Assembly: GCA_032622095.1 (NCBI GenBank)
Contig: CP136068.1
Span: 121,649,989-121,713,988, forward strand
Direction: 5' to 3'
DNA: 64,000 bases
From: Siphonodentalium dalli
Lineage: Eukaryota > Mollusca > Scaphopoda > Gadilida > Siphonodentaliidae
Part shown: one piece after another, positions 23,255 to 64,000 of the stretch
Position numbering within the stretch: position 1 is the stretch's first letter
How the letters are laid out: each line of letters opens with the position of its first letter
Notes under the pieces: generated by a model
Told to the model about the DNA's origin: nothing
Databases searched by the model: none
Seen by the model: the letters and a program-made list of their open reading frames with translations, nothing else
Translations under genes and position numbers: made by a program

Positions 23255-23646
23255 CCCTTTACCCAACAGAAGGGCCCTGTGCCAATGCATTCTCTTATAT
23301 ATGCGAGTCGACCATAGGTCGCCTCGCATATATAAGAGAATGCATTGGCTTAACACATTAAAAATTATAAAATTGTTAAAGAATGTAAGAAAAAATGGTA
23401 AAAAGTGTTAAAAAAAGCTTTTTATTAGGCCAATGCATTCTCTTATATATGCGAGGCGACCTATGGTCGACTCGCATATATAAGAGAATGCATTGGCACA
23501 GGGTATAACTGTAACTATCACAATGTGGTCAATGAGCCGGTTCCAATGATATCCATATTTGTATGGTTTTATTGAGACAGACCCAAGATAATTTAGGCTG
23601 TTGCAGCTTTATTTGGCCGGTTTTGGCCGGTTTGTTGGGTAAAGGG
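23255..23646. mobile_element. TTAA-type MITE, family 1, with twin palindromes
   Basis: The ends are CCCTTTACCCAACA and TGTTGGGTAAAGGG. TTAA follows on the right (23647-23650); the left flank reads AAGT, so one TTAA is degenerate. Hairpins of 69 nt lie at 23281-23349 and 23429-23497 in opposite orientation, separated by 79 bp. CCC(T) ends with TTAA targets are known of piggyBac-type elements. No transposase is encoded. Confidence 0.8.
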
Positions 23647-23653
23647 TTAAGAG

Positions 23654-24041
23654 CTAAGATAAGATAAGATAAGATAAGTTTATTGGCTCTTGAATCATGA
23701 AACATTGTAACAGAGTAAGAATAGGTAACATATGTATATGTGTTATATGAGGTTGTAAATAGAATCTAGATGTGACTGTAGAGTATAAATGGAATCAGTA
23801 ATAAAATAAGTATAAGCAGATTCAGTGAGACATGTCACAGAGTGGGACAAGTTTCATGAGATCTAGAGCCAACAGGGTTGCACAAAAAGCTGGCATAGCC
23901 AATTTGATTCCATTGTGGACCCTGCTGACTTCAGATCACATGACTCCTCGACCACACCATGAAAATTGCTTCCAACTATATATACTATATAAATGCCAAA
24001 AATGATCAATCAATGGGGGATTTGCTTACTTCAACCTTATT
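23654..24041 (-). mobile_element. 3' tail of a non-LTR retrotransposon
   Basis: In minus-strand orientation this is the 3' untranslated part of the element whose reverse-transcriptase fragment lies at 24042-24761. It ends in a pentamer microsatellite (AAGAT)n on the plus strand at 23654-23678, as seen at the 3' ends of CR1/L2-like elements. Confidence 0.55.
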
Positions 24042-24761
24042 TCAAAAGTATTTATAAATGCTTTCATCGCTTTGTTTGATATATATCCAGATTCTTTCAA
24101 CAATGTCGGCTCTCCATTGTTTCTCATTACATAAAGGATCTAAATATTTTACAACATTATTCCAGCATTTAATGCCGGAATACATAAAACTCTTCGAACC
24201 AAAAGGTCCAACAGAGGGGATATTATATTTGAATTTTCCAGATCTTGTGTCATGGGAAGGATTTGCTAAGGTAAACATAGAATTGAGGTAATTTGGGCCA
24301 TTATTATCATAGATCTTTTTCATGAGTATCAATTTTCTTTGAATTATCCTATTCTCTACTGGGAACATCTTGAGATGTTGAAAGTGATCTAAATTTATAT
24401 GACTGAAACTTTCTAGACCAAGAATAAATCTAACCATCCTATTTTGGGAGGTCTGAAGTTTTCCTTTAGTTTTGACTGTAAGTGGAGAAAACCAAAAGTT
24501 GCATGCATAATCAAAATGACATTGGATAAGAGACATAGCCATGAGTTTCCTACAGTGCTGATTTAGAAATTTTGCTTTTCGATACATATATTTAATACGA
24601 GAATTGATTTTCGTCAAAACTGACTCAGCCATCATTTCTCCATTTAAATTTTGGTCCAATATTGCTCCTATCAGAAATAATGTCTTCGCCGTATTATAGG
24701 GACAAATTAACACACGGCAGGCCATTAGTGGAATGTGCTTCAGCTTCGTGAGTCGTGACAT
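24042..24761 (-). pseudogene. 5'-truncated non-LTR retrotransposon ORF2, C-terminal part of reverse transcriptase
   Basis: An open frame of 239 codons. From about residue 32 it reads like the end of a CR1/L2/Jockey-type polymerase: IGAILDQNL, then KINSRIKYMYR, then LIQCHFDYACNFWF (thumb region), then KLQTSQNRMVRFILG. Its tail holds HDTRSGKF and a terminal KQW. The catalytic YADD part and everything upstream are absent, typical of 5' truncation during target-primed insertion. The first ~25 residues may be flanking sequence. The frame is uninterrupted, so the insertion is not very old. Confidence 0.75.
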
Positions 24762-26106
24762 GTGCTTTACATTCGTGACATAATTGAAGTATTTGGTGAC
24801 CCAGAACTGGACGATTTATGATGAATCGAGATCATTAGGACGATCAACATTGCCCATTATATATTACCCAATGTGCTTTACCTTCGCGGCTTGCATCACT
24901 CACATCACATAATATTGTTGAGCTAAATTCCTAAGATCATCATAGTAAGATGGTTGAAATCATATTTATAAATACGTGGGGAACTCAATTTCTTAAATTT
25001 CTACAGCAGAATATCTAGACTCCATATAAAGTACGAGATAACTCGTAGTGGCTTCAGTCTGGAATATAGTGCAGTACGAGATAACTCGTAGCCGGTACTC
25101 AACGTGTTAAATAAAAAATAATTTAAATACGAGCAGATAAAAATTCAAGTAATCGTACCTAGATTGTACTCTATATGTGACGTCATCGATGACGTTTCAT
25201 CATCATGCGGAATACATTAATCCGTAACCATTTTTGACGACACTGTGGACTGAATCGATGTTGATGTTCTGATTGGACAATCGGAGCATTACTGGGACTA
25301 TGGGAATTAAAATTAATATGGTTTATTATTATCTTTAATATTTATAAATTTTGTACATTTATATCATATGCGAACTAAAACGATAAAACATATAATTTTA
25401 ATTGGAATATAAGAATTACAACCTATTACGTAACTATAGAAACATTAAGTGCTCGGACATATTCAATTTCAAGATGGTCGCCGAAATAGCTTGACGCTAT
25501 CGGATATCCCTATTCGGATAACAACAACACGGGACTAAACGATTTTCACACCTGTAGTGTGTTTACATAATCAATACTGACATTAGGTACACTCATAAAC
25601 TTGAAGATGCATTTGCATTTGACTTGTACAACATCCGAAATGTCCTAAATTCCACAGGGGGTGATGAATTTGGCGAAGACTCAAGAGTCAGAGACTCGCT
25701 GAACTTCAACTTGTGATTGTGCAATTTGTGAAGTAAATTTTGATATTTTAGAACGCAAACTGTTACGATTATGTCGCGATAATGAATATTATTTCAAGTG
25801 AAATTATTTGATAAATGTAGATACCAAGTTTTTACCAAGCTATCAAACAATTGACACGAAATGTGTGGTCTCGACTCTTGAGTCTTGTAACTTATGTAAG
25901 TTCAAGTTGTATCACTGCCAAATTCTCCACTTCACTGTCTGCAGTCAAACCAGTTTACAGTTAGCCATGAGTTACTGAGTTATATATAGTCACTTAGTGA
26001 AGCATGAACTTGATGAAGCCATTGAAGGAATACAAATGAAGTCGGCCGAATGCGAACTTGACCCTAGGCTATAGCCTAGTATAGGCTATATACAAAGTCA
26101 GACTTA
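24762..26106. other. Unassigned stretch with small inverted repeats
   Basis: The dyad TACGAGATAACTCGTA occurs twice (25032-25047 and 25075-25090). A loose inverted pair lies around 25668-25690 and 25865-25885 (AGACTCAAGAGTC). No exon is recognised. Confidence 0.4.
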
Positions 26107-26806
26107 AGCGTGCCGCACACAATCAGTGACAATGCGATATTTGTTGCACGATATTTGTCGCAGAACCTTGCGACGTAAGATCTTGTTGTGCATACGGTAC
26201 GATTTTAGTCGTCCGACTTCTTTTTTTATCACTTATGGTAGACCACCGCACACTATGCGATCGGATCGTACGATCTGCTTGTTTACTTTCTTGTGAATGC
26301 AATGGGTTACCGTATTATTAACGTGCTATATATAGGCTATACGCTAAATATTAATTTAATATTATGTACAACTGTTTGTAGTTCAATAGACTATTAGGCC
26401 CTATACCTGATTTAATTCCCCACACAAATTCACAATAAGATATTATTTTGACACCAATTTGCTGGTGTCCAGTCCATCTAGCTGTTTCAATTGTAGTTGT
26501 ATTGTAGAGGCATGAATGTATTCCGCTACTCTGACTTTGAAGCACACTTCATGGACGCCATGTTGTTGTGAAATAAAGCATGTGATGATGTGATCGCTGC
26601 GTGATCATATTAATAGTTGAATCTGATTGACTACTTCGAATAAATCGTATGATTCAATCGTAGATAATCAAAATTATTTGATTTTTTGCGGGTCCGATTG
26701 TGCGACAAAATGTCCTGCGATTTTCCACAGCACATGCTACGATTTGACCTGTAACCGGTGCCCGATATTTGTCGTACAATATATATCACATCGTGTGCGG
26801 CACGCT
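26107..26806. mobile_element. Harbinger-type MITE
   Basis: The ends are AGCGTGCCGCACAC and GTGTGCGGCACGCT. They are flanked by the 3-bp duplication TTA (26104-26106 and 26807-26809), which fits PIF/Harbinger targets (TWA). Inner repeats GATATTTGTCG occur near both ends. The 122-codon frame that overlaps the right end is not a transposase. Confidence 0.7.
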
Positions 26807-26939
26807 TTAGTCAGCCCCCACTCGAACTCGACCACAGAGATGTCGGCCCCATTAATGACAAACATTATTTATCATTTATTTGATATCAATCTAAAACTAG
26901 TCAATACAATAAAAATACAGACCTTCTCAAAAGAAATGG

Positions 26940-27150
26940 CCCTCCCGACCGCGTTACGACCGCGTTACGACCGCGTTACGACCGCGTTGGAGTAACGTTA
27001 CGACCGCGTTGATCCAACGCGGTCGTAACGTTACTCCAACGCGGTCATGATTTTTTTCTCAACGCGGTCGAGGAAACCGTCAACGCGGTCGGCATGACCA
27101 CCAACGCAACAAACGCGGTCGAGATAACCGTCAACGCAACAAATGAGGTC
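26940..27150. repeat. AACGCGGTC repeat cluster
   Basis: Four tandem copies of GACCGCGTTAC open the cluster. The 67-bp palindrome (26980-27046) follows, then spaced AACGCGGTC words joined by AACCGTCAACGCAACAA. The same word recurs at 28890-29170 and 30720-31100. Confidence 0.85.
26980..27046. repeat. Perfect 32-bp inverted repeat with 3-nt loop
   Basis: The arms 26980-27011 and 27015-27046 (GACCGCGTTGGAGTAACG... / ...CGTTACTCCAACGCGGTC) are exact reverse complements around ATC. It could extrude a cruciform. Confidence 0.95.
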
Positions 27151-36487: not shown

Positions 36488-39400
36488 GTAAGAATATGAT
36501 TCATTTAGGCCAAGGTTAATTAATTTTCTGTTTATGCAGTGATTATCTATTACTAATTTTCCTGACTTGCTTTCTGAAGTTACTTATGTAGCATAATGGA
36601 TATAATAACTGTTACCACCAATCTTGCTTACATTCATTTTATGCAACCCGACTCAATAAGAGAAAATGTTCATATCTGAATTTTCATGTAGGATACTTCA
36701 CTGAACCTGAACATTGTGCCAATAATTAATCAAATGCGTTATTATACCCCCCGCAACGAAGTTAGGGGGGGTATACTGGAGTCAGCTTGTCCGTCCGTCC
36801 GTCATCCGTCCGTCCGTGGACACAAATTTGTCCGGAGTTTTTCTCAGTCGTTTTTTTTATCAATTTCCTTGAAACTTGGCACAGACATCAATCACCATGG
36901 GAACCTGTGCACCTGCGATTATGACGTCTGTCGGACCTTTTTTGGTGGAGTTATCCCCCTTTTTCGACTTAGAATTTTTTTGCAACATGTATACTTTTGT
37001 CCGAGCTTTTATTCCCACATTTTTAGGTCAATTTTTAAAAAACGTGGCACAGATATTTAGTACCATGGGAAATTGTGCACCTGCGATTATGACGTCTGTC
37101 CGACTTTTTTTGGTGGAGTTATCCCCCTTTTTCGACTTAGAAATGTTTTTGGCAACATGCATAATTTTGTCCGAGCTTTTATTCCTACATTTTTCGGTCA
37201 ATATTTTTTAATCTTGGCACTGATATTTAGTACCATGGGAACCTGTGCACCTGCGATTATGACGTCTGTCCGACATTTTTGTGTGGAGTTATTCCCTTTT
37301 TTTTACTTAGAATTTGTTTCGCAACATGCATAATTTTGTCCAAGCTTTTATTCCAACATTTTTCGGTCAATAGGTTTAAGATTAGGGTTATGGTTGTACA
37401 CCTGCAATGGGAACTGTTATTTTATTATTTTAACTAAATGTTTACTGACATGTGAAACATCTTGGTATTTTAAAATCAGGGGGGTATCCGTAGTCCCATT
37501 GGGACAGTCACACCTCTAGTTATTTTTCCATCAAGGCTGCAAATTATGAGGCGATTGATGCTAAACATGAAATTAATTAACCCTTTCATGATGTGATGTG
37601 CACTGGTGTAGCATTAAAGATCCTGTGCCAGTACATTCTCTTATATATGCGAGTCTCCCATAGGGAGCCTCGCATATATAAGAGAATGCACTGTCTTACA
37701 AGGTCAAGGTAAATATTGGCACAGGGTTTTCACAATAATTTAAATGGACGATTTTTGTAAATTCCGCTACAAACTGAGGAAGAGTTGTAGATTCTATTTA
37801 TTACATGATTCAAAACCTCGATAAAACATATGTAAATCAACAAATGCGATGTGAAACTAACATCAGCTTCCATAAGTCCTGCGATGATGTTTCACGTAAC
37901 TATGCGTTGTTTACCCATGTATAGAAATAGTCCCAGATAAATTATGACTCTTTGACTTTTTTAAGGGCGCGTAAATTTAATTACATAACTTTTCAAACTC
38001 TTCATTCAGTAGAGTTTGTTGAAAAAATATTGAAAGCCATAGTATTTTGAGATATAGCGTATGGAATGTAAACAAACGACAAAGCGGGGTAACATGATAT
38101 CTCCCCCTGGATATCTTCCCCCGAGGGGGGAGGGTGGAGGAAGCTATACTAGGATATCTTCTCCCCACCCTGGATATTCCCCCCCCCCCATTTATCACTA
38201 AAATATAATTTTGCTCATTTGATATCATTTTTTTTTTCAAATATCCAAGCCTGGATATCCCCCCCTCACCCAGCACCTACATGACAAAAAATCCTCTTAT
38301 AATGGTTTTATTGCTTATTTTCTTACGAGAAAAAGTTATTTTGTAAGGGTTTGGGATATCATGGCCTGGACATCTCCCCCGCCCCCCACCCCAAACCCTG
38401 ACTCACTTTTCCCGGAAGAAGTTAATTTCTTGCTGTTTCATGACTACATGCATATAAAGCAAAATAAGCAATAAAACCATAAGAGGATTTTTTGTCATGC
38501 AGGTGCTGGGTGGGGTGGGGGATATATCCAGGCCTGGACATCCACCCCCCCCCCCCCCCCCAAACCCTGACAAACAACTTTTCTCGGAAGAAGTGAATTT
38601 TTCACCGTTTCATGACAGTATTAAACCCCACCTTGACAAACAACTTTTTCACGGAAGAAGTAAATTTTTCACCGTTTCATGACAGAAAAAGAATTTCCTG
38701 GCCATTTCAGGGACAAACGATATCAAACCCCCCAACCCTTGGGTGGGGGGGGGGGGGGAGATGACGTGTTACACCGGAAGTCAAAGGTATCATGTGCGCA
38801 ACAATAGTACACCTGTCACTATTTCCTGTTATGCAACGAACATTGCATTTCACAATTTATTTAATGTGTTTATTGAATGGGATAAGGTTAGGATCGTCTA
38901 ATAAGCATGTATATATATAGATATGCGCAATCCCTCTTTATATTGTTCAATTATTAAGTTCTTTAGCCACAACAACTTTACCCAGCACCTCTGTTGGAAC
39001 TCTTGTTTTCTTCTTGGAGAATGGTAAATTCTCACCCAGGATCAATTATACAGTATTGGGACAGTTTGTGGAAGTATATTTTGTAAATGTTGAACCCAGA
39101 TGAGCAATTCATTTACTCTCAAATCTCATATTTTCAGTCTTCAAGTTCCAATTCATCTGATAACGGCACAGTAGGACTGAAGAACCTTGGAAATACGGTT
39201 AGTACTGAATATCTTTGTACTTTATTTCATTTAGGTCACCTCTTCAGCTCATCTATGGATTGAAAAGATCGCACCATGCATTAATGAGTATAATATGAAT
39301 CATACGTGGCATGTAGAGGAGCAACCACACATGCTGTGCCTCACATATGCCTTTTATCAGCGACATAAAGCTAAGAATAATTTATGTAACATAATGCAGT

Positions 39401-42400
39401 GGTCACGACGGAGATGACATGACAACTTGATAAAAGATGTGTCGTGGATTGTGCAATCTTGTCTGTATTCTGGCCCACAAATCCAAAATGACGTCAGAAT
39501 CTGTATCATGATGTCTTCATTTTCGTTTTCCTTAAGCTGAACAACGAAATTGGTCTAAATGAAATTAAAAGGCCTAAATCACATGGGAATTCTTCGTAAG
39601 TTGTACTGTCATTTTCATCGCGATGCTCCATTCCTGATTCTCTGTGTTTGGCAATCACCACACTGTTGCTAACCGGAAGTCACATGACAATTTCTCCAAA
39701 ATCCATACCCGCGATGTTTAAAAAATCACTGATGGATATAGGACATATGCCTGATGTATAAATAACCATGTGCACCTGCGGCACGCTGGTGGTTGCTATT
39801 ACATTGAAATATTAATCATTCCATGACTACAGCTTCATGAAATTTTGCGAAAACCCTGTGCCCGTCCCACGCATATATAAGAGAATACATTGGCCTAACA
39901 ATACATACCTTGACCTTGTAAGCCAGTGCATTGTCTTATATATGCGAGGCTCCCTTTGGGAGACGCGCATATATAAGAGAATGCACTGGCACAGGATATT
40001 TAATGCTGCACCAGCGCAGCTCCCGCCATGAATGGGTTAATGAAAACGACTAATATTGATATAAAACAGGAAAATTTTGACACAAATGCACACAACTCAC
40101 ACCATCTGGAAGGACTTGTACATAGCACATTCACAAAAGATTGCAGGTATTAGCAATTTCTTTGCTATATGTATTCTCCCATTTAGTTATAAAAGTATAC
40201 ATTGGAATGGTCTATTATTGATATGCATAGGGGTTTTCAAGAAATGTAAGCAGACGACTGATAATACATGTCTAGAAGGAGTCCTATTTATTGAAGAGAA
40301 ATGTTTAGATAATAAGTTCAACATTCAAATTATTATCTGAACATTTTCAAAGAGAGATACTCGTCAATGAGTAATTAGTATAGAAAGCATTCAAAAATCA
40401 TTATGAAAATTACCAATTCTCATTTGTGGTGCGCTTCTACACTGGGATTTTACTTTGGCTCATTTTTATTAGCACATCAACAAACTTAAGGTGATATATT
40501 ATTCCATTTTGAAACAATACACTACCGGTACTGACGGTACATCAAATCCTACAATTGGTCAGATTGAAGTTTCCAGTTCAAATGCCACTCTTCCTGAGCC
40601 AGGAGGGCAAGAATCCTATGACATAATGATGTAATCAGACATTCTACCAACTTGACCATCGCCCATCCTGAGTGTATACATGTAAATAAATAATCGAGTA
40701 TTAATATGTTTTACACAGCTAGGTGATTGTTGCCTATGTCACCATCAATCAACATTTACTCTTGTGTCCAGAATAGACAATAGAATGCGGCATTTAGCTA
40801 ACGCCGATTGCCTTCTAAAAAATTGCTCTTTCAAATGTTTGTTTTTATCGCGTTTTGGCGAGTTACATATGATCTTGTCAGTTTAAAATTAATAAAACTA
40901 ATAAACGTATAGACCGGAATAAGCTCGTATAGTGCGACAATTTTCATGAAAAAAACTTAAACGTACATATACCGGTATGTACGTTTATTCAGGACACGAG
41001 AGTAGACGACCAATTTGTTAACCCTTTACCCAACAGAAGGGCCCTGTGCCAATGCATTCTCTTATATATGCGAGTCGACCATAGGTCGCCTCGCATATAT
41101 AAGAGAATGCATTGGCTTAACACATTAACAATTATAAAATTGTTAAAGAATGTAAGAAAAAATGGTAAAAAGTGTTAAAAAAAGATTTATTTTAGGCCAA
41201 TGCATTCTCTTATATATGCGAGGCGACCTATGGTCGACTCGCATATATAAGAGAATGCATTGGCACAGGGCATAACTGTAACTATCACAATGTGGTCAAG
41301 GAGCCGGTTCCAATGATATCCATATTTGTATGGTTCTATTGAGATAGACCGAAGATATTTTAGGCTGTTGAAGCTTTATTTGGCCGGTTTTGGCCATTTT
41401 GTTGGGTAAAGGGTTAAGTAAAATGAGGAAATGTTCAGTCCTTTCAAGTTGAGCTACAGCTTTTGACACTTTTATCTTTTGTTATTTCAGTGCTTTATGA
41501 ATTCTGTCTTACAATGTTTGAGTAACACCAAGCTTCTAATGGACTACTGTCTAAATGACGAGTATCAGAGAGACACGAACAAAACTTCAAGTAGTATGAA
41601 GGGAGCCTTAATGAGTGGTTAGTATCCTCATTTATTACACACCCATGATGAGTACCAGAGAGACACCTGGAAATGTTTTAACAAATTACAGTATTGCTAA
41701 ATAGGAAATTAATGAGATTCAATATTAATAACTATGAACACTAAAGCTTGATCAATTTGATCAACTCTGATTCTAAAATAATACACACCCAAAAAACCCA
41801 CAACTAACATGGTACATTTGAGATTTATCAGTCATTTCAATATCCCAAAGTCGAGACTTTGTCATCTAAAATACTGGTGGCAGAATTTTGACTATTTCTT
41901 TGATACATATAGATCTATGTTAATAGATAAAGCATAACCCACAATGTTGAATTTGATGGTTGGTTTATGTTCTTCTGAGTTCTGATATAAAGTTCTTGTT
42001 TATTTATTTCAGCCTATGCCAACCTCATGTATTCATTATGGAAGAGTGGCAAGAACGAAACTTACATCTCACCAAATAATTTCAAGACCCAAATACAGAA
42101 GTTTGCCCCCAGGTTCATGGGGTATTTGTAAGTATTCATTATTGTGTTAAGCTTAAAGATGCATAATCCGAATTAATGCTGCCAAATGACTATTTCTTTG
42201 GCTTCAGGGGTGAAAAACATTTGATTCGAGTCAAGGAACCCACCCATCAAAGCTCAGAGTGATCAGATATAAATTTTTGAATTTTTTTTTTTCGCGAAAT
42301 GTAAAAAAATTTGTGGCCCAGAAACGAGTCGTCAAACCAATTGTCTCGGACAAAATTGCGGATGAAGATGGATAACTCTAAAATCAAGTGGTAATGCGGC

Positions 42401-45400
42401 CAAATTTTGTGATACGAAAGTGATAATACAGCCATATTTCGTTGAACAACATGTTGATAAATATCACGTTTTGGGAAATTTTATTCCATAGTTGACAGGG
42501 GTTAGCATTATTTTGTTGTAATTAATTGATTCTGATAACAAAATGTATTTTGTAGAAATTTTGTTGTTGTAACTTGATGATATGGGGACCGTCTGAACAG
42601 ATTGAGTAACGACTTAATCTGAGAAAACTATTATAGTTAATTAACCCTTTCTTGACGGGAGATACGCTGGTGCATCATTAAAGATCATGTGCCATGCATA
42701 ATGTTATATATGCGAGTCTCCCTATGGGAGACTCCCATATATAAGAGAATGCACTGGCTTACAAGGTAAATTGAAATATTTTGTTAGGCCAATGTATTTT
42801 CTTATATATGCAAGCATATGTAAGAGAATGCACTGGCTTACAAGGTCAAGGTAAATATTGTTAGGCCAATGTATTCTCTTCAATATGGGAAGCTCCCTAT
42901 GGAAGACTCGCATATATAAGAGAATGCATTGGCACATGGTTTTCACAAAATTTCAGGGAGCTCCAGTCATGGAAGGGTTAAGCTTACTGACTTACTCTGA
43001 GAAAACTATTATAGTTGAAACCAAGCTGTTATAAACCTATACCATAGTAGGGTAGAACTTGTAGAATGTCGATCTGGATTGACCATTCATAATTCATCCA
43101 CCTACTTATTCATGTTCTTGGCATTCAGGTGTGTTTTTTATCGAACCAAATTTTGATTGAAACAAAAGACCATAGTCAATGATAACTATCCGGTATATTG
43201 TCACCACAGGCTGTCCAAACCCCCAAGTTTAATGGACAATTGTGTTGAAATATTTCGAAAAAAGATCAATCGAAAAGGAATAAAAAACAAATTTGGGAAC
43301 GCAGTTTGACAGGAATACAGTTTGACAGGAATACAGTTTGACAAGAATACAGTTTGACAAGCAGTGTATATTGGCCATGTTATAATGGTTATTTGAAATT
43401 TTATTGGCTATCATCCATTGCTGTACAGTCTCTAAATAGTCAGCAGAATAAGTGAATCAAGACGTTCTATGATAGTTTGGAAGATCACTTTATCTTTTCA
43501 TTTCGACTGTATTTACGTTCAATATTTTTATATGGCATATATATGAACGGATATGTAGTTCTGTGTGCTGTTAAAAATGCTTGTGTCGATAATGCTCATC
43601 CCAATAAAGGTAATCCCTATATGATGTAAAAATAAAAATAAAATCCTTGCTCCCTCATTGATTTAAAAAAAAATTGCCTGAGAATCAAATCATTTTATTT
43701 GATTATGTGGGTAGCACTTTCAGTATCAGATTTTATTTCTTTTTCTTTTTCCTTCTAATAATTGAACTATTAATCTTACAGGCAACAAGATGCCCAAGAA
43801 TTTCTCAGATACTTGCTGCAGGGACTCCATGAGGACGTAAATAAAGTTACCAGTAAACCAAAACCACATATACTAACAGATGAAGATCTCGAGCTAAAAA
43901 GGTTTGTTATACGTCTAAATAAAGTTACCAACAACCAAAAATGCATATACGAATAGATACAGCAGATCTCAAGCTGACAAGGTTTGGACACTTATATGAC
44001 TTAAAAAGTTGAAATGCTATGGGGTGGAATTAATTCACAGAGTCTATATTAAATTAACATTTCTATGTGGGTGCTTTCACACCGAAGGCTGACTCTCGGG
44101 GGGCTTAAAAATATGTAATAATTTATGACCAATAAAAACCTTACTTAACTTCTTGTTTAGCATGTATATCTGTCACACATTTGACAACTTATCTCAACAA
44201 ATTCTCATCAAGAATAAAGAATAAAATAATTTATTGGATTTTGTCCTGCAGATTGTTTCGGGAGTAAATTAACATAGGTTGTTTGTTGAATGTATAAAAA
44301 ATTAACATTTCCCACCAATGAATAGTATTCCTTCTGTACTTTCTATTATTTGTTGTCTGCTTATATTACATGAACATCCCTCCAGATGAATAATAGACCA
44401 TTCCATTATATTCTTTTATAACTGAATGTGAGAAACGGTTAATTCTTTTTACCACAAATATTCCGATTTCTTTTTCAGTGATATGGAAAAAGCGAGAGAA
44501 TATTGGAGAGCATATTCAGCTTTCGATCAAAGCAAGGTGGCTGGTGAGTAACTTGCAAAGAAGTATATATACCCAGAATGACACAAGTGTGTTAACCCTT
44601 TCATGACAAGAGCTGTGCTGGTGCAGGATTAAAGACCATGTGCCAGTGCAGTATCTTATATATGCGAGTCTCCCATAGGGAGCCTTCCATATATAAGAGA
44701 ATGCACTGGCTTACAAGGTCAATGCGAGGCCAGTGCATTCTAGGTGGTTAGTTCATAGATACCACTACACAGTCTGGTCAAGCCAAGGCTGACATGGACA
44801 CAAATTGGGACTGATTTTCAAACTTTGATCTGAGTTTATGGATACTTCAATGTGAAGATCAGTTAAAAACATGGCCATTTCATTAAGAGTTTATCCAAGC
44901 ACTTTACAAGTCAATGAACACCTCATAGCGAGCCAGTGCATCAAACATTTATGATACACACTGCATTGAATATTTAGGCCAAAAAAAAACACCTTTGTTT
45001 CCAATACCCTGCCTGAGATTTTCTTGCCTGCCTCAATTTTTTTTCAATTTTCTCCAGAAAGCTAATCTATATATTTACCTGTTAGAGTGTCAATTTGAAT
45101 ACTTATCGTTTTCCCCAAAAGCAAAAATAAGTAGGTTATTAAGCTCAACGTTGGTTGAGATCTTTTTGCAGAGTGAATGAATTCAAGGGACAACATCAAT
45201 CAATGCTTCATGCTTGGCTTATTTTCATTACACAATGATCTACCATATTCCATGACACCATGACTATGTTGACTACATGTATTATATCGCTTATGGCTTA
45301 TGGCTGGAAGGATTAAAAAAAAAATTGCAAAATAACCCCAAAAACTCTTCCCGCCTTACTGGAAAAATTTCCCAATGTTATTGGAAACAGAGAAGTTTTT

Positions 45401-54400: not shown

Positions 54401-56482
54401 GCTGCGGAGAAAGGTCAGTGTATGACATGATTGTAGTTATCCACCAATGAAAGCCATTTTGATGGTCATCCTAGATTTGTAATCCCAATTAATTTCTCCT
54501 CTTTGGATAGTACAATATCTTTGTGTTGTGAACATAGAAGATAGGATGCAGCTTTATTTGTAAAATGCAGATCAGACCAACTAGGTACATATTAATTTAT
54601 TGAAGGCCGCCATCTTTGACGCCATCTTTTTTCTTCCATTTGCAAAGCTAGACATAATTGGGAACAAAATGAGTGTGGTAAAATTGAGTCCTGTGGGGAG
54701 CGATGGTAGAAGCCGTTAGGTGCAAGAAAAGCTTTTTGTCATTATCCCCTGAACTATTGTGACAGGGCCATAATAAAAATATGGCTTTTTCGCAGTCACC
54801 CACCTATTGTCCTTAAAAGGCACCTACCCAAATTATTTTTTGGGCCTCTCCAGAAATTTTGTTTGTTTGCGATTTACTGTCGATATAAACCTGTGTATTT
54901 CAATGCAGCAGTCATATATACAAATAATTGCACTTGTCTGACTTTTTATTTCTTCAATGGGAGGGTGCCGGTATGAGCTAATACATCATGTGACATATTA
55001 AAACTACACAATCTGTCACTCACCCTTAGGCGACACTTTGATGAAAAGCCACAGCAACACTTTAAACCTACAGGCTGGTCTCTGCATATACAGCCGGCAA
55101 AAAAATATTCTACCTACCAACCCACACAGTGACCCGCATAGAAAAATGCGCTGGTGTAGCATTAAACATCCTGTGCCAGTGCATTCTTTTATATATGCGA
55201 GTGTCCCATAGGGAGACTCGCATATATAAGAGAATTCACTTGCTTAAAAAGCTAAGGTAAATATTGTTAGGCCACTGCATTCTCTTATATATACGAGGCA
55301 TCCCGCGCATATAAGAGAATGCATTGGCACAGGGTTTTCGCATACTTTCAGGAAGCTCCAGTCATGGAAGGATTAATAGTGGCCCAACAAAAAACCTTTT
55401 ACTTTCAACAATTTCACCCCCATGGCTGACTATTGTAGAATAACTTATCTCTCTTGATTCCCAGGTGAAGGTCGAGTGATGTATAACTTGTATGCAGTCA
55501 GTTGTCACTCAGGTAGCACACACGGTGGGCATTACACAGCCTATTGCAAACATCCATTCAATAGCCAATGGTACTACTTCAATGATACTCGGTAAGTTTT
55601 AGGTGCAAATGATGATATTATGCAATAACATACTCTTACAGTAAAACCTCACTTAACCGGACCCTCTATAAACTGAATCCCTCTCAATACTGAACTGTTC
55701 CCTTCCGAATTGACCCATATGTCTCCTTATGTCACGATATGACCATAGCTATTGAAATTGACATTAACCCTTTACCCAACAAACCGGCCAAATAAAGCTT
55801 CAACAGCCTAAAATATCTTCGGTCTGTCTCAATAGAACCATACAAATATGGATATCATTGGAACCGGCTCCTTGACCGCATTGTGATAGTTACAGTTAGC
55901 CCTGTGCCAATGCATTCTCTTATATATGCGAGTCGACCATAGGTCGCCTCGCATATATAAGAGAATGCATTGGCCTAAAAAAAAAACTTTTTTTAACACT
56001 TTTTACCATTTTTTCTTACATTCTTTAACAATTTTATAATTTTTAATGTGTTAAGCCAATGCATTCTCTTATATATGCGAGGCGACCTATGGTCGACTCG
56101 CATATATAAGAGAATGCATTGGCACAGGGCCCTTCTGTTGGGTAAAGGGTTAAACACCATTTAACTATGATATCAAACTGAAATTTAGGGGCTTGAGAAA
56201 AATGTATTATGCATTGACAATTCAAAGACCAATTTCTTGATAGATAGTTTATACTGTCTTCTAGAATAGAGAACTCACTTGCAAATTCTTCTCTCAAATG
56301 AAAATATTTTGCATTTGGCAAGCAGCATCGCTAACCCTGCTGCCAGGCTTACTTTTCTGTTCCTTCCTCTTTCAACATGTATATTTTATTTTTTCAGGGT
56401 GTCGCCGAGTTCTCCTCGAGCTGCTGTTACCTCAGATGCCTATGTTTTATTCTACGAGCTCACACGTCCATCCATGTTATAA
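35768..56482 (+). CDS. USP2-like: Ubiquitin-specific protease, USP2/USP21-like (12 coding exons, whole gene)
   Basis: A deubiquitinating cysteine protease that removes ubiquitin from proteins. The modelled protein has 593 residues, close to the long vertebrate USP2 isoform. Residues 1-250 are a Ser/Tyr/Arg-rich, probably disordered extension. The USP domain follows: [13 protein letters not shown] with oxyanion Asn256 and catalytic Cys261, QQDAQEF at 342-348, [11 protein letters not shown] near 425-435, HLKRF at 490-494, GGHYTAYC with catalytic His546, and FND with Asn563/Asp564. The C-terminus carries [10 protein letters not shown]. The zinc site has C418, C465 and C468, but the expected first ligand is F415. 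All 11 introns obey GT-AG and the phases join without a frameshift. The introns carry many MITEs and a DIRS-like element. The start is the first Met after an in-frame stop. An acceptor-like CTTTCTCAG at 35801-35809, in phase, would allow a separate upstream first exon. Confidence 0.93.
36735..37520 (+). mobile_element. Intronic dispersed repeat with (TCCG)n start and Helitron-like 3' end
   Basis: It starts near TATACCCCCCGCAACG with a short CGTCCGTCCGTC tract. Three tandem copies of a ~160-bp unit follow (GTGCACCTGCGATTATGACG ... TCCGAGCTTTTATTCC). It ends with the hairpin GTCCCATTGGGAC, 10 bases and CTAGT (about 37490-37521). The 3' end fits Helitron rules, but I do not see a clean 5' TC end. 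It lies in intron 1. Confidence 0.5.
37581..37730. mobile_element. TTAA-type MITE, family 2 (partial)
   Basis: TTAA (37577-37580) precedes CCCTTTCATGATG. A single hairpin of the GTCTCCCATAGGGAGCC loop type follows (about 37628-37695), then TTGGCACAGGG. The second hairpin and the right end are missing. It lies in intron 1. Confidence 0.65.
38083..38776. repeat. Inverted-repeat element rich in C/G runs
   Basis: The inner arms at about 38267-38320 and 38461-38513 pair almost perfectly (CACCCAGCACCT... / ...AGGTGCTGGGTG). The outer ends GGGGTAACATGATATCTCCC and the complement of GGGGGAGATGACGTGTTACA also pair. Several C or G runs of more than 8 bases lie inside, with direct repeats of AACTTTTTCACGGAAGAAGT. 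It lies in intron 1. Confidence 0.6.
39138..39197 (+). CDS. USP2-like: USP2-like exon 2 (residues 241-260)
   Basis: The acceptor is TTTTCAG and the donor ACG|GTTAGT. It encodes [11 protein letters not shown] and then VGLKNLGNT, the first half of the Cys box with oxyanion Asn256. The intron splits the box directly before the catalytic Cys codon. Confidence 0.92.
39850..40036. mobile_element. TTAA-type MITE, family 2 (left end lost)
   Basis: It begins in a half hairpin (CCTGTGCCCGTCCCACGCAT). A full hairpin follows at about 39923-39990, then GCTGCACCAGCGCAGCTCC and ATGAATGGG before TTAA (40037-40040). It lies in intron 2. Confidence 0.65.
40171..40391. mobile_element. Family-4 related repeat
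   Basis: It shares TCTCCCATTTAGTTATAAAA, TTATTATCTGAACATTTTC and GTCAATGAGTAATTAG with the family-4 elements at 51939 and 59582. The ends are degenerate. It lies in intron 2. Confidence 0.55.
41022..41413. mobile_element. TTAA-type MITE, family 1, intact ends
   Basis: TTAA flanks both sides (41018-41021, 41414-41417) of CCCTTTACCCAACAG ... TGTTGGGTAAAGGG. The twin hairpins lie at about 41048-41116 and 41196-41264. The length of 392 bp equals the copy at 23255-23646, to which it is very similar. It lies in intron 2. Confidence 0.88.
41491..41617 (+). CDS. USP2-like: USP2-like exon 3 (catalytic Cys)
   Basis: The acceptor is TTATTTCAG. The first codon is TGC, catalytic Cys261, followed by [12 protein letters not shown] and the DYCL motif typical of USP2. 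The donor is AGTG|GTTAGT, phase 1. Confidence 0.95.
42013..42127 (+). CDS. USP2-like: USP2-like exon 4 (residues 303-341)
   Basis: It encodes [13 protein letters not shown], then the [14 protein letters not shown] segment just before the QQDAQEF box. The donor is TATTT|GTAAGT, phase 2. Confidence 0.95.
42645..42977. mobile_element. TTAA-type MITE, family 2 with three hairpins
   Basis: TTAA (42641-42644) and TTAA (42978-42981) flank CCCTTTCTTGACGGG ... CATGGAAGGG. Hairpins lie near 42690-42757, 42786-42834 (collapsed) and 42866-42935; the middle one looks like an extra damaged copy. It lies in intron 4. Confidence 0.75.
43302..43360 (+). repeat. 16-bp tandem repeat, ~3.7 copies
   Basis: CAGTTTGACAGGAATA is repeated, with G to A changes in the last two copies. 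It lies in intron 4. Confidence 0.9.
43782..43901 (+). CDS. USP2-like: USP2-like exon 5 (QQDAQEF box)
   Basis: The acceptor is CTTACAG. It encodes [20 protein letters not shown] and an acidic stretch (LTDEDLEL). The donor is AAAAG|GTTTGT, a weak but usable site, phase 2. A partly duplicated copy of its 3' end (AATAAAGTTACCA...) lies in the intron at about 43917. Confidence 0.93.
44220..44435. repeat. Family-4 related repeat, degenerate
   Basis: ACATTTCCCACCAATGAATAG, TCTGCTTAT and CCAGATGAATAATAGACCAT align with family-4 elements. It ends near GAGAAACGGTTAA. It lies in intron 5. Confidence 0.5.
44479..44543 (+). CDS. USP2-like: USP2-like exon 6
   Basis: It encodes [20 protein letters not shown], the linker helix before the zinc-finger fingers region. 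The acceptor is TTTTTCAG and the donor GCTG|GTGAGT, phase 1. Confidence 0.92.
44596..44750. mobile_element. TTAA-type MITE, family 2 (3' truncated)
   Basis: TTAA (44592-44595) is followed by CCCTTTCATGACAAGAGC and one hairpin (about 44641-44710). The second hairpin is reduced to GCCAGTGCATTCT. It lies in intron 6. Confidence 0.65.
44975..45412. mobile_element. Element with TTAGGCCAAAA inverted ends
   Basis: The left end TTTAGGCCAAAAAAAAAC...TTTCCAAT is matched by the right end ATTGGAAACAG...GTTTTGGCCTTA. It is the same end type as 33831-34879. It lies in intron 6. Confidence 0.5.
45446..45549 (+). CDS. USP2-like: USP2-like exon 7 (first zinc knuckle, one Cys missing)
   Basis: It encodes [11 protein letters not shown], then KFTDCGHRS, where family members have C-x-x-C, then [16 protein letters not shown] (Phe415) stands where TGT or TGC is expected. 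The acceptor is TTTTTCAG and the donor AAG|GTATGA, phase 0. Confidence 0.95.
47415..49590. repeat. Five tandem or spaced modules inside the DIRS-like element
   Basis: A ~180-220-bp module (GGGTGGGGAAGACT ... CTCTTCCCCATGGTGCAG, GATGGGGTCCA, AATACCTTCGGGATAC) recurs at about 47430, 48385, 49045, 49237 and 49424. The first two copies share about 200 bp almost exactly. The last two are tandem at ~187 bp. The 138-codon minus-strand frame at 48667-49083 crosses one module; I recognise no domain in it. It is rich in Ser and Lys/Arg. Confidence 0.75.
50421..50517. repeat. Internal complementary region (ICR) of the DIRS-like element
   Basis: Bases 50421-50460 are the reverse complement of 45734-45773. 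Bases 50461-50517 are the reverse complement of 50723-50779. The join between them marks the circular junction of the element's two ends. Confidence 0.88.
51745..51850. repeat. Hairpin family AGAATGAGGTCCCCAGAGGG
   Basis: The arms GAATGATGTCCCCAGAGGTT and TCACCCTCTGGGGACCTCAT pair around GATGCTAGCCCGCTGG. Other copies lie at 57685-57792 and 63228-63292, with a half copy at 45634-45668. It lies in intron 7. Confidence 0.75.
51939..52144. mobile_element. TTAA-type MITE, family 4
   Basis: It starts CCCTTTCTTAAAATACTCAT (the left flank TTAT is a degenerate TTAA) and ends AGTATAGAGAGGG followed by TTAA (52145-52148). It carries no twin palindromes. It lies in intron 7, about 70 bp before exon 8. 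Confidence 0.7.
52218..52295 (+). CDS. USP2-like: USP2-like exon 8
   Basis: It encodes [20 protein letters not shown] and then GEDERP, matching the family segment between the two zinc knuckles. The acceptor is TGTGCAG and the donor CCG|GTAAGG, phase 0. It follows the 6.7-kb intron that holds the DIRS-like element. Confidence 0.93.
52475..52700. repeat. Dispersed repeat with TCCG tract
   Basis: It contains CGGTCCGTCTGTCG... and CTGTCCGTCCGTCCG, then ATTTCATCCCAGAGATTTGAA. A related but diverged start is seen near 61168. It lies in intron 8. Confidence 0.45.
53633..53711 (+). CDS. USP2-like: USP2-like exon 9 (second zinc knuckle)
   Basis: It encodes [18 protein letters not shown], with CxxC at residues 465/468, then KFPKILVL. 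The donor C|GTATCC is weak, phase 1. Confidence 0.92.
54312..54413 (+). CDS. USP2-like: USP2-like exon 10 (HLKRF)
   Basis: It encodes [18 protein letters not shown], then [16 protein letters not shown]. The acceptor CTCACTAATAG has a poor pyrimidine tract but preserves phase and the HLKRF motif. The donor is AAAG|GTCAGT. Confidence 0.92.
55133..55370. mobile_element. TTAA-type MITE, family 2, ends degenerate
   Basis: GCGCTGGTGTAGCATTAAAC leads into hairpins at about 55172-55241 and 55270-55326 (the second with a shortened loop). It ends CCAGTCATGGAAGGATTAA. It lies in intron 10. Confidence 0.7.
55465..55591 (+). CDS. USP2-like: USP2-like exon 11 (catalytic His and Asn)
   Basis: It encodes [20 protein letters not shown], with catalytic His546, then WYYFND with Asn563. 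The acceptor is TTCCCAG and the donor ACTCG|GTAAGT, phase 2. Confidence 0.95.
55768..56149. mobile_element. TTAA-type MITE, family 1 (inverted), intact ends
   Basis: TTAA (55764-55767 and 56150-56153) flanks CCCTTTACCCAACAAACC ... CTGTTGGGTAAAGGG. The hairpins lie at about 55905-55973 and 56066-56134. It lies in intron 11 of the USP2-like gene. Confidence 0.88.
56398..56482 (+). CDS. USP2-like: USP2-like exon 12 (C-terminus, stop)
   Basis: The acceptor is TTTTTTCAG. It encodes [20 protein letters not shown] and then ELTRPSML, followed by TAA at 56480-56482. The [10 protein letters not shown] block closes the USP fold. Confidence 0.95.
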
Positions 56483-57680: not shown

Positions 57681-57684
57681 GAAG

Positions 57685-57792
57685 ATGAGACCTAAGCAGA
57701 ATGAGATCCCCAGAGGGTGAATTTAGGGATATTAGCCTGCTGTGCAGGGTAGTGTCACAAAATTCACCCTCTGGGGACCTCATTCTGCAAAT
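57685..57792. repeat. Hairpin family AGAATGAGGTCCCCAGAGGG, second copy
   Basis: The left arm CAGAATGAGATCCCCAGAGG and right arm CACCCTCTGGGGACCTCATT pair around TATTAGCCTGCTGTGC. See also 51745-51850. Confidence 0.75.
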
Positions 57793-57832: not shown

Positions 57833-57971
57833 AGAATTATGGGTAATTTTTCAGGATTTAGTCGGAAATATGGCTTGTTGCCATTCATCGGAAAGCTCTC
57901 AGTGAGAGCTTTCCGATGCATGGCAACAAGCCATATTTCCAACTAAATCCCTAAAAATTACCCATAATTCT
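57833..57971. repeat. 139-bp near-perfect palindrome
   Basis: Two 69-bp arms meet at a single G (57902): GGAAAGCTCTCA, G, TGAGAGCTTTCC. Pairing runs outward to AGAATTATGGGTAATTTT / AAAATTACCCATAATTCT with only a few mismatches. No direct flanking repeat was found. Confidence 0.9.
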
Positions 57972-59185: not shown

Positions 59186-59581
59186 CTCTGTATGTTATAA
59201 TATGACTTCCAGACAATGTATCCCTGACTGTGATTTGTTATGTTGGATTTCTTTTGTTTATGATGTTAACTTTTGTATGATCTGCGGATGTTGGGTGTTA
59301 ATTCTGGTTGTTAATGAAGTGTTTAGCCCGTTCTTCCAGTATTTAACAACCTGAAAACCCAAATTCAGATATTAATTAACCATGACTATTGTAGTTAAGT
59401 TAAACTATGGAGATGTCCTCCCATATTTAGAATTACTATTAAGAATTATTTGGGGATTTGTACCTTCAAATTGGTAGTGAGTCTAAAGAAATCCTCCGAC
59501 CTCCGTAGTTATGGTACTTTTTAGATTGACTGCATTTATTATTCTTAGGTCAGCTCTGGCTTTGATATGTGATTTAATTAA

Positions 59582-59842
59582 CCCTTTCTTTACTAAATAC
59601 TCATTGACGAGTAGTTACCTTAGGAAATTTTTTTAGATAATAAGTTCAATAAAGGACCATGGACCGTTTGTGGAACTTATAGCCTAAACATTTCCGACCA
59701 ATAAATAGGAATCCTGAAATTTTATTTTCTATTCGTCTGTCTGTCATCAGCTCATTTTTCCTGAACACCCCTCCAAATGAATAATAGACTATTCTAATGT
59801 ATACTATAACTGAACGGGAGAATCCATTTAGCAAAGAAAGGG
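59582..59842. mobile_element. TTAA-type MITE, family 4, intact ends
   Basis: TTAA (59578-59581 and 59843-59846) flanks CCCTTTCTTTACTAAATAC ... TTTAGCAAAGAAAGGG. The inner section has GATAATAAGTTCAATAAAGG and no twin palindromes. Confidence 0.85.
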
Positions 59843-59901
59843 TTAAAGAGAACTGGATTGGAGCAAGATCATTACATAAATCTGTAACATTGCACTCTTA
59901 A

Positions 59902-60156
59902 CCCTTTGATGACTGGAGCTGCGCTGGTGCAGCATTAAAAACCCTGTGCCAGTGCATTCTTTTATATATGCAAGTCTCCCATAGGGAGCCTCGCACATAT
60001 AAGAGAATGCATTGTCTTACAAGATCAAGGTAAATATTGTTAGGCCAATGTATTCGCTTATATATGCGAGGCTCCCTATGGGAGACTCGCATATATAAGA
60101 GAATGCATTGGCACAGGGTTTCCCCAAAATTTCAGGAAGCTCGAGTCATAAAAGGG
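59902..60156. mobile_element. TTAA-type MITE, family 2, intact ends
   Basis: TTAA (59898-59901 and 60157-60160) flanks CCCTTTGATGACTGGAGC ... CATAAAAGGG. The hairpins lie at about 59947-60014 and 60044-60111 with the GTCTCCCATAGGGAGCC-type loop. Confidence 0.85.
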
Positions 60157-60574
60157 TTAACATGAATATATGAATGTTATCAACATAAGATCTAATCGAA
60201 TCAAATCGAGAAACCTGGATTGCAAAATATAAATAAAATCTTAGGTATTCGAAATATTCATTGTTACAGAGCAGCTTTGTATAATTTTGTCTCATTATAC
60301 CTATATATGCTTTTTGTTAAACTGTCAATAATGGTGAGGTTTAAATTGGAGAACATGTCATTGAAGAGAATGTATAACCAGGAATGGATCCAAGGCCCTT
60401 TTCATACCTGTAACCGAGTTTCAATATCAAAAACACCTCAACCATTTAACAGATGTTTGTAAAATGCACATAATCCTTTTCACTCGTAAGTACAATAAAT
60501 CGTGCAACAAATATCTAGCTCCTTCACTGCATGAGTTCCAGATAGCAGCTATCCGAACATTTTATAGAAGCGAC

Positions 60575-60671: not shown

Positions 60672-60675
60672 TTAA

Positions 60676-60903
60676 CCCTTTTAGTGCCAGGGGCCGATCT
60701 CATCGGCCCTAATTTATGGTCTGTAGAGTGCTCTAAAAAAAAAAAATGAAATATATATTTTTTTTATATATATATTTTTTGGGTTAGGCCAATGCATTCT
60801 CTTATATATGCGAGGCGACCTATGGTCGACTCGCATATATAAGAGAATGCATTGGCACAGGGTATATGGGTCGATACAAAAATCGGACCTGGCACTCAAA
60901 TGG
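60676..60903. mobile_element. TTAA-type MITE, family 3, one hairpin
   Basis: The ends are CCCTTTTAGTGCCAGGGG and CCTGGCACTCAAATGG. GGGCCGATCTCATCGGCCC lies subterminally. A single full hairpin lies at 60788-60856. TTAA lies at 60672-60675 and 60904-60907. Confidence 0.8.
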
Positions 60904-60907
60904 TTAA

Positions 60908-62391: not shown

Positions 62392-62395
62392 TTAA

Positions 62396-62615
62396 CCCTT
62401 TGAGTGCCAGGTCGATTTTTGTATCAACCCATATACCCTGTGCCAATGCATTCTCTTATATATGCAAGTCGACCATAGGTCGCCTCGCATATATAAGAGA
62501 ATGCATTGGCCTGACAATTTTTTTTTTACAATTTTAATAATTTATTCTTATATTCTTTAACATACTTACTTTGCAGGTTTAGGGCCGATGAGATCGGCCC
62601 CTGGCACTCAAAGGG
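62396..62615. mobile_element. TTAA-type MITE, family 3 (inverted), intact ends
   Basis: TTAA (62392-62395 and 62616-62619) flanks CCCTTTGAGTGCCAGG ... CCTGGCACTCAAAGGG. One hairpin lies at about 62445-62513. Confidence 0.85.
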
Positions 62616-62679
62616 TTAATAGATGTTCGTAAAATACACATAATCACTTTCACTTGTAAGTACTTACTTCCTGCTTTAA

Positions 62680-63058
62680 CCCTTTACCCAACAAACCGGC
62701 CAAAACCGGCCAAATAAAGGTTCAACAGCCTAAAATATCAATAGAATAATACAAATATGGATATCATTGGAACCGGCTCATTGACCACATTGTGATGGTT
62801 ACAGTTATGCCCTGTGCCAATGCATTCTCTTATATATGCGAGTCGAACATAGGTCGCCTCGCTTATATAAGAGAATGCATTGGCCTAAAAAAAATCTTTT
62901 TTTAACACTTTTTACCATTTTTTCTTACATTCTTTAACAATTTTATAATTTTTAATGTGTTAAGCCAATGCATTCTCTTATATATGCGAGGCGACCTATG
63001 GTCGACTCGCATATATAAGAGAATGCATTGGCACAGGGCCCTTCTGTTGGGTAAAGGG
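62680..63058. mobile_element. TTAA-type MITE, family 1 (inverted), intact ends
   Basis: TTAA (62676-62679 and 63059-63062) flanks CCCTTTACCCAACAAACC ... CTGTTGGGTAAAGGG. The hairpins lie at about 62815-62883 and 62966-63034. The left loop reads GTCGAACATAGG, one change from the usual form. Confidence 0.88.
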
Positions 63059-63227
63059 TTAAATATCTAGCTCATCCACTGCAAGAGTTCCAGATAGCAG
63101 CTATCAAAACGGCTGAAGCGACGGTTTAGAGATTACATTAGTGATGGAGGTTCCTGGCCTTGACATATCTGATGGCATTTTGAGCAAGTTGGGGAAAAAA
63201 AGCTATTATTCTGTGTGCCGGACATTT

Positions 63228-63292
63228 GCAGAATGAGGTCCCCAGAGAGGAGATAGCATCACTAATTTCACCTTCTGGGCACCTCATTCTTC
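63228..63292. repeat. Hairpin family AGAATGAGGTCCCCAGAG, third copy
   Basis: The left arm TGCAGAATGAGGTCCCCAG and right arm CTGGGCACCTCATTCTTCA pair around a loop with ATAGCATCACTAATT. Confidence 0.7.
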
Positions 63293-63460
63293 AAATGTCC
63301 AGCACTATATTTTGAGGTCTGTTTACTTCATTCTATCTTATTCTCAAGCCAGCTAAAGCCATGGATTTTGTGTGCATCTAATATGTGTATTGCTGCATAT
63401 AATCTGACACTTCACCAGAACAAAAGTATGTGAAGAGAATCCAATACCATATTGCTTTAA

Positions 63461-63687
63461 CCCTTTCATGACGCTGGTGCAGCATTAAAGATCTCCCATG
63501 GGAGCCTCGTGCATATATAAGAATGCACTGGCTTACAAGGTCAATGTAAATATTGTTAGGCCAAAACATTCTCTTTTATATGTGAGGTTATATATGGGAT
63601 GCTCCCTATGGGAGACTCACATATATAAGAGAATGCATTGGCTCAGGGTTTTGAGCAAAATATCAGGAAACTCCAGTCATGGGAGGG
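63461..63687. mobile_element. TTAA-type MITE, family 2, first hairpin shortened
   Basis: TTAA (63457-63460 and 63688-63691) flanks CCCTTTCATGACGCTGG ... CATGGGAGGG. The first hairpin is missing its left half; the second lies at about 63562-63640. Confidence 0.8.
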
Positions 63688-63716
63688 TTAAATGATCTTA
63701 TCTGAATTGATCTTAA

Positions 63717-64000
63717 CCCTTTACCCAACAAAACGGCCAAAAACGCCCAAATAAAGCTTCAACAGCTAAAATATCTTCGGTCTGTCTCAATAACACCATA
63801 CAAATATGGATATCATTGGAACCGGTTCATTGACCACATTGTGATGGTTACAGTTATGCCTTGTGCCAATGCATTCTCTTATAAATGCGAGTCGACCATA
63901 GGTCGCCTCGCATATATAAGAGAATGCATTGGCCTAAAAAAATATTTATAATATTTTTCTACATTCTTGACAATTTTATCATTTTTAATATGTGTTAAGC
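63717..64000. mobile_element. TTAA-type MITE, family 1, cut by the window end
   Basis: TTAA (63713-63716) precedes CCCTTTACCCAACAAAACGG. The first hairpin lies at about 63867-63935. The second hairpin and right end lie beyond the window. Confidence 0.85.

Follow-up and report, generated by a model that had tools for sequence, protein, structure and literature searches.

A hairpin module shared by short mobile-type elements with four kinds of ends in the scaphopod Siphonodentalium dalli

Miniature inverted-repeat transposable elements (MITEs) are assembled from foreign parts, as two precedents indicate: PMC1562414 describes the composite AgaP2-P12MITE of Anopheles, in which ends of different P subfamilies are joined, and PMC6887750 describes MER6, a Mariner-type MITE that carries a short interspersed nuclear element (SINE) V domain. 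Here we describe a module of hairpin-forming palindromes that is carried by 15 short elements with four kinds of ends in a 64,000-nt stretch of the Siphonodentalium dalli genome (GenBank assembly GCA_032622095.1, contig CP136068.1, positions 121,649,989 to 121,713,988 of the forward strand; hereafter, the window). AgaP2-P12MITE is likewise built from parts of different families, but it joins two ends, whereas in the present case a single internal block occurs with several ends. MER6 is similar in that a foreign conserved block is multiplied as a MITE passenger, but it is a single MITE (plus a variant) whose block derives from a SINE, whereas here there are four carriers and a palindrome block without a known source. 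Composite and passenger MITEs are thus already known, and an earlier reading of this DNA from its letters alone (hereafter, the original prediction), according to which no named system matches the arrangement, was too strong as to kind; the exact arrangement, in which the same hairpin block occurs with four types of ends that include a non-TTAA type, was not found in the literature searched.

The searches for shared internal palindromes and for chimeric or nested MITEs in that literature retrieved only these two precedents, and twelve sequence strings from the palindrome and the ends do not occur in the literature text searched. In the bacterial REPINs, which are pairs of REP (repetitive extragenic palindrome) sequences, short hairpins in inverted pairs are also the repeating unit; REPINs differ from the module in that they are bacterial, are mobilised by the RAYT transposase and have no outer carrier. 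Patterns of 18-21 bases gave no matches in prokaryotic and viral contig collections (2 and 3 patterns), and one carrier (E2) had no match in phage records. A 17-base part of the palindrome matched 7 stretches of viral contigs, with no palindrome within 60 nt of the match, and these matches were taken as chance.

Most of the carriers resemble piggyBac-type MITEs. According to PMC10813416, the tip motif conserved best among piggyBac elements is CCCTT, and their target duplication is usually TTAA; it is the combination of TTAA flanks and CCCTTT-type tips that places three of the end families (C1, C2 and C3, defined below) among putative non-autonomous piggyBac-type elements. Kolobok transposons also duplicate TTAA but, according to PMC9587614, have 5'-RR...YY-3' tips, whereas the carriers end in CC...GG except where a single copy has base changes; KolobokP was rejected on these grounds. 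Neither the palindrome module nor its sharing with a non-TTAA carrier is described for piggyBac-type MITEs in the literature searched.

The palindrome unit and its carriers

The core of the palindrome, CCAATGCATTCTCTTATATA, has 48 matches at up to three mismatches, all within positions 23,282-63,932 of the window, compared to none in 100 dinucleotide shuffles. The palindrome is near-perfect and consists of 67 nt (69 with the flanking outer G/C pair), with a stem of 26 bp, one T.C mismatch and 5 bp, followed by a 3-nt ATA loop. Altogether, 26 whole or partial palindromes were identified (19 of exactly 67 nt, four full ones of other lengths, from 56 to 81 nt, and three short or partial), so that the repeated hairpin of the original prediction is real. 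Every palindrome lies in one of 15 short elements located between positions 23,251 and 64,000; scans for the core pattern and for palindromes found no copy in positions 1-23,250, and the 24 of 185 BLAST hits that fall outside the carriers cover the AT-rich spacer only. The inner stem comes in two versions, CGACC/GGTCG in C1, C3 and C4 and CTCCC/GGGAG in C2, which amounts to two adjacent pairs changed on both sides; in addition, the fourth pair is G-C in place of A-T in four left palindromes of C2.

The carriers fall into four end families: C1, with CCCTTTACCCAAC ends (five elements, 379-392 bp where complete), C2, with CCCTTTCATGAC ends (seven), C3, with CCCTTTGAGTGCC ends (two, of 228 and 220 bp) and C4, a lone element of 471 bp with long inverted repeats, whose ends, ATATGTGACCCGCC in inverted orientation, are unrelated to those of C1-C3. 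The 14 carriers of C1-C3 have, at the tips that are present, CCCTTT or variants that differ from it at one to three of the first six bases, and are flanked by TTAA on both sides (9 of 14) or on one visible side (5 of 14, four of which have one end missing or altered and one runs off the window). The predicted set of TTAA elements with three end types plus a fourth carrier is recovered as 14 carriers and one. The borders of C4 (AATA before TGTGACC and GGTCACA before TATG) fit a TA duplication, as would be expected of a Tc1/mariner-type MITE, with the qualification that there is one copy and that its flanks continue the inverted repeat.

The complete module runs from CCCTGTG through a palindrome, an AT-rich spacer that starts with CYTAACA and a second palindrome to CACAGGG; in the four complete C1 copies, its two arms are 79-80 nt long, show 96-99% complementarity and are separated by 71-72 nt. 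The same pair of hairpins had been predicted for every carrier, always in opposite orientation, and both statements hold in part. Two or more palindromes, counting partial ones, are present in 10 of the 15 carriers (three in E5), whereas four (E3, E6 and both C3 elements) have only one and E14 is cut by the window end. Judged by the loop or the mismatch, the paired copies are opposite in all seven readable carriers among these 10 (E1, E2, E8, E9, E12, E13 and C4), and in E4, E5 and E7 one copy has lost or changed the part that tells the orientation.

The inner flanks of the palindromes are partly conserved between carriers, as predicted. A right-hand type, CCTAACAATTTTTT, is found on the right of C2, in the C3 element E11 and on both sides of C4, and in a changed form on the right of C1; a left-hand type, CTTA..., is found on the left of C1 and C2; and the other C3 element, E10, retains only CCTAAC. 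An alignment of 53 nt at 87% links the left inner flank of C4 to the right-hand flank of C1, and the right inner flank of C4 fits the right-hand flanks of C1 (1 of 500 shuffles reach the score) and C2 (0 of 500) and also the left one of C4. From these similarities, C4 can be read as two right halves of the module and C3 as one, and on that reading the right half, rather than the pair, appears to be common to all four carriers. Because both inner flanks of C4 resemble the right-hand type, its twin arrangement may have arisen separately.

A constant edge, unrelated arms and a shared inner flank

When the outer junctions are aligned, all 23 shift at the same place from carrier-specific sequence to CCCTGTG followed by the palindrome, across six arm types; the CCCTGTG edge is exact in 14 junctions and has one or two base changes in the other nine. 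By sequence comparison, the arms of different carriers are unrelated beyond CCCTTT. In the eight between-carrier pairs of C1-C3 arms, trimmed of their first 6 nt, the observed score is reached by 116-500 of 500 shuffles, and for the C4 arm compared with the other five, the range is 177-500 of 500. One pair is conspicuous when the tip is included, namely the left C2 arm and the C3 arm, for which 10 of 500 shuffles reach the score with CCCTTT included and 353 of 500 without it. The two arms of the same carrier are related (0 of 500 shuffles for C1 and 1 of 500 for C2). A constant edge in unrelated arms is expected of an inserted or captured unit.

In the side-by-side comparison, the closest pair of inner flanks from different carriers comes from E11 of C3 and the left side of C4 (CCCTTTGAGTGCC and ATATGTGACCC carriers, respectively), with 47 of 50 positions identical; on the right side of C4, the identity with E11 is 42 of 50. 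The CCCTGTG heptamer together with the palindrome is identical between C3 and C4 at 71-74 of 74 aligned nt, while the arms of the two (40 and 49 nt) are unrelated, with a score that 177 of 500 shuffles attain. These observations support the proposal that the module is passed between elements. The original prediction had set against this proposal a full agreement of module and end phylogenies; what we find, judging both relationships from distances, is that C3 and C4 share the module and not the arms. Simple descent of whole elements, in which the outer ends of one ancestral MITE would have diverged around a conserved centre, is compatible with the CCCTTT-type tips common to nearly all TTAA carriers, but fails because the relation of the C3 and C4 modules cuts across end types: gradual divergence cannot yield inner flanks identical at 47 of 50 positions between unrelated arms. 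We regard it as very improbable.

To compare the divergence of the heptamer and palindrome with that of the adjoining inner flank, mismatches per aligned position were counted on the same side of the same copies, with four right units representing C1. Between the right sides of C1 and C4, there are 0-2 mismatches in 74 positions of the heptamer and palindrome and 11-14 in 56-59 of the inner flank (p from 4.3e-6 to 0.0021); between C1 right and E11, the corresponding values are 1-3 in 74 and 10-11 in 54 (p from 3.1e-4 to 0.015). Within C1, palindromes have 3 substitutions relative to the majority in 604 positions, compared to 37 in 1222 elsewhere (p 2.4e-4); with private changes only, the counts are 3 in 604 and 29 in 1222 (p 0.0036) and, without E14, 2 in 536 and 16 in 936 (p 0.026). 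The C1 test covers all five carriers, E14 in part, and five copies are few; it was designed, like the parallel test of C2, after the sequences had been viewed. Constraint or homogenisation of the palindrome is thus indicated by the sequences of C1 and by most between-carrier comparisons, not within C2. The low divergence in C1 fits exchange between palindrome arms or constraint in active lineages, and the data do not separate the two.

Origin of the module

The explanation that we rank first, with about even confidence, is that the founders of at least four MITE families each received an old cassette with hairpin ends, by insertion or by capture, and then multiplied it as a passenger, its palindromes being kept alike by exchange or constraint. 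The cassette would have brought the constant outer edge with it; the transposases of the carriers, a piggyBac-type one for C1-C3 and a different one for C4, would then multiply it; its right half alone would be enough for capture, as in C3 and, doubled, in C4; and the similarity of the palindromes would be maintained either by constraint or by exchange between copies, through gene conversion or through template switching at DNA prone to form hairpins. The constant edge, the unrelated arms, the shared inner flank, the TTAA flanks and the lack of a target duplication of the module's own are observed, whereas insertion or capture as the initial event, the mobilisers of the carriers and the cause of the likeness among the palindromes are inferred.

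Several observations weigh against this explanation. Direct repeats that could represent target-site duplications are absent from the module edges in C1 (AGAAGGG before and YATAAC after the module), C2 (AAAGAY or AAAAA and TTTTC) and C4 (TTTA and TAAA, where a TA pair is indistinguishable from the inverted repeat); C3 shows one module edge only and so offers no second edge for comparison. There are no module-less copies of the arms of any of the four carriers in the window at E 0.01, and no free-standing palindrome outside the 15 carriers within the 64 kb, whereas a cassette that inserts would be expected at other sites too. The module of C4 is placed symmetrically between identical arms, which insertion does not require, and C4, a single copy, is a candidate mobile family on the strength of its inverted repeats. 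Together, the lack of duplications, the lack of free copies and the central position in C4 are evidence against a plain nested transposon. The distinction of left and right halves is weak in the first 30 nt of the left C4 flank, which fits the left flank of C1 (25 of 500 shuffles) about as well as the right one (20 of 500). Two further comparisons speak against homogenisation everywhere: between C1 right and C4 left, the heptamer and palindrome have 2-3 mismatches in 74 positions (plus a 6-nt insertion) and the inner flank 7-9 in 61-63 (p 0.023-0.078), and in C2 there is no difference in conservation between the palindromes and the other parts (51 substitutions in 658 positions and 67 in 736, respectively; p 0.39). 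The C2 test included the available parts of all seven carriers, with six left and four right palindromes; these counts do not include E4's partial palindrome or E5's middle palindrome, and the spacer had seven entries, E5 being represented twice.

The nested copies with their own target duplications that the original prediction had considered were not found at the edges in C1, C2 and C4, and thus no recent nested insertion with target duplication is seen; the constant edge leaves an old insertion possible. The module edge itself begins with CCCT, as do piggyBac-type tips, and the module as a piggyBac-type nested insertion was considered as a candidate and rejected, given that neither TTAA nor a direct repeat is present.

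Next in rank, and less likely than insertion or capture, is recombinational swapping of ends, whereby breakage or stalled replication at a palindrome would be repaired by a template switch to the palindrome of another element, bringing new outer arms without any insertion of a cassette. Such swapping accounts for near-identical palindromes next to diverged spacers, for single and triple palindromes (C3 and E5) and for the doubled right half in C4, and fits the lower divergence of the C1 palindromes. However, an arm without a palindrome offers no homology, so that the first joining would have to be illegitimate, and for this to occur at the same nucleotide in six arm types is unlikely; nor is there the contrast between palindrome and the rest within C2.

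Another alternative, which we consider unlikely, assigns the palindromes a cis-acting function in transposition, either as a site for a transposase or host factor or as a hairpin that aids excision, retained by selection in every amplifying family. PMC11707139 shows that the piggyBac and piggyBat transposases bind subterminal palindromes via paired C-terminal domains, and the module begins 38-49 nt from the tip in four of the six arm types (both C2 arms, C3 and C4). The structure of the palindrome points in the same direction: the T.C mismatch is present in 18 of the 19 full-length copies, from which we infer that the palindromes are not simply rebuilt by copying one half, and two-sided changes occur at 3 of the 31 pairs. 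In an alignment of 16 of the 26 palindromes (seven partial or other-length copies were omitted, as were three C1 67-mers identical to others: E1p2, E2p2 and E8p2), which contains 11 distinct sequences, 93.3% of the cells pair, compared to 89.7% in shuffles, and 12 cells have two-sided changes, compared to a shuffle mean of 4.7, with none of 500 shuffles as high. The number of pairs with a two-sided change is, however, not above that in shuffles (3 against a mean of 2.7; 308 of 500), and the changes may represent perhaps two or three events only. Other points speak against a cis-acting role as well: in C1, the distances from the tips to the module are 20 and 143 nt; the published piggyBac sites are short (19 bp), compared to 67 nt here; a TTAA/CCCTTT MITE at 59578-59846 lacks the module; and a common transposase is unlikely because C4 does not have TTAA/CCC ends. 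The original suggestion that the module supplies something that all carriers need is, on these data, no more than a possibility.

Still less probable, and decidedly so, is that the palindromes are precursors of small RNAs, either microRNA-like or small interfering RNAs, exploited by the elements. As RNA, the 69-nt palindrome of E1 folds at -54.3 kcal/mol, but the loop is only 3 nt long and a scan of the window with Rfam yielded no family at the gathering score.

A bolder version of the history, which we consider doubtful, is that the palindrome cassette spreads by itself as a parasite of DNA transposons. Breakage at the hairpins followed by template switching, or insertion targeted to the centres of other MITEs, would take the cassette into transposons of different superfamilies and keep all copies alike, and it would thereby outlive each carrier family. 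If this were true, modules would cross between transposon superfamilies. The origin of the internal sequences of MITEs, and the reason why some of them amplify, are open questions on which this module bears. If the palindrome is shared because it aids amplification, sister elements that lack the module should be less common and less mobile, which is not expected of a mere passenger; a defined internal block with one constant edge and four end types provides a concrete test case.

Coordinates and neighbouring sequences

The coordinates of the carriers are listed in Table 1. Two candidate assignments were rejected: a 2,464-bp element bounded by E3 at one end and E4 at the other, given that each of the two has remnants of both arms of its own, and a C4-like end on E7, for which the match score is 11 (32 of 2000 shuffles) and unrelated places in the window score 12.

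Table 1. Positions in the window of the carriers, with their palindromes and flanks, and of one complete module
Feature	Position	Strand	Description
Complete module (example)	23275..23503	+	CCCTGTG, left palindrome, 81-nt AT-rich spacer, right palindrome in opposite orientation, CACAGGG
E1 (C1), 392 bp	23255..23646	+	palindromes 23282-23348, 23430-23496; TTAA right only
C4	33184..33654	+	palindromes 33239-33311 (6-nt insertion, one base change), 33532-33598; both halves right-hand-like
E3 (C2)	37577..37740	+	single palindrome 37628-37694; right end missing
E4 (C2)	39812..40040	-	palindrome 39923-39989, partial palindrome 39854-39893; TTAA both sides
E2 (C1)	41018..41417	+	palindromes 41049-41115, 41197-41263; TTAA both sides
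E5 (C2)	42641..42981	+	three palindromes, 42692-42757, 42789-42836 (shortened), 42866-42932; TTAA both sides
E6 (C2)	44592..44760	+	single palindrome 44643-44709; right end missing
E7 (C2)	55140..55376	+	palindromes 55176-55242, 55272-55327; left tip missing
E8 (C1)	55764..56153	-	palindromes 55907-55973, 56056-56122; TTAA both sides
E9 (C2)	59898..60160	+	palindromes 59949-60015, 60045-60111; TTAA both sides
E10 (C3)	60672..60907	-	single palindrome 60789-60855; TTAA both sides
E11 (C3)	62392..62619	+	single palindrome 62443-62509; inner flank 62510-62562 matches C4; TTAA both sides
E12 (C1)	62676..63062	-	palindromes 62817-62883, 62965-63031; TTAA both sides
E13 (C2)	63457..63691	+	partial palindrome 63492-63531, palindrome 63561-63641 (insertion); TTAA both sides
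E14 (C1)	63713..64000	-	palindrome 63866-63932; cut by window end

The module-less MITE at 59578-59846 has CCCTTTCTTTACTAAAT ends; E10 starts at a TTAA, and the sequence to the left of that TTAA matches the end of that MITE at 19 of 20 positions. Several carriers lie between the exons of a USP2-like ubiquitin hydrolase that are split by introns across 41490-56480 (best matches to USP2 chains, E 6.2e-50; UCH domain, E 2.4e-13). Pfam scanning of 9 of the 13 window open reading frames of at least 120 aa found no transposase family. A 257-aa open frame on the reverse strand (24042-24815) has no match in Pfam; by its look, which is an impression only, it resembles the C-terminal part of a long interspersed nuclear element (LINE) reverse transcriptase.

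The window has a G+C content of 35-44% in 4-kb steps and contains other repeats. Arrays of a 122-bp tandem repeat (2.6-3.5 copies each) occur at four places in 9662-14190 and at 21203-21487, with an inverted copy at about 21.2 kb. A perfect palindrome with 32-bp arms and a 3-nt loop (GACCGCGTTGGAGTAACG..., 26980-27046), located beside 11-nt CGACCGCGTTA tandem repeats, has the size of the hairpin studied here and an unrelated sequence. An inverted repeat with 69-nt arms, 65 of the 69 positions paired, and a 1-nt loop (57833-57971) is apparently another hairpin MITE, and related-looking AGAATGAGGTCCCCAGAGGGTGAATTT... hairpin repeats are present at 51768-51850, 57696-57788 and about 63230-63295.

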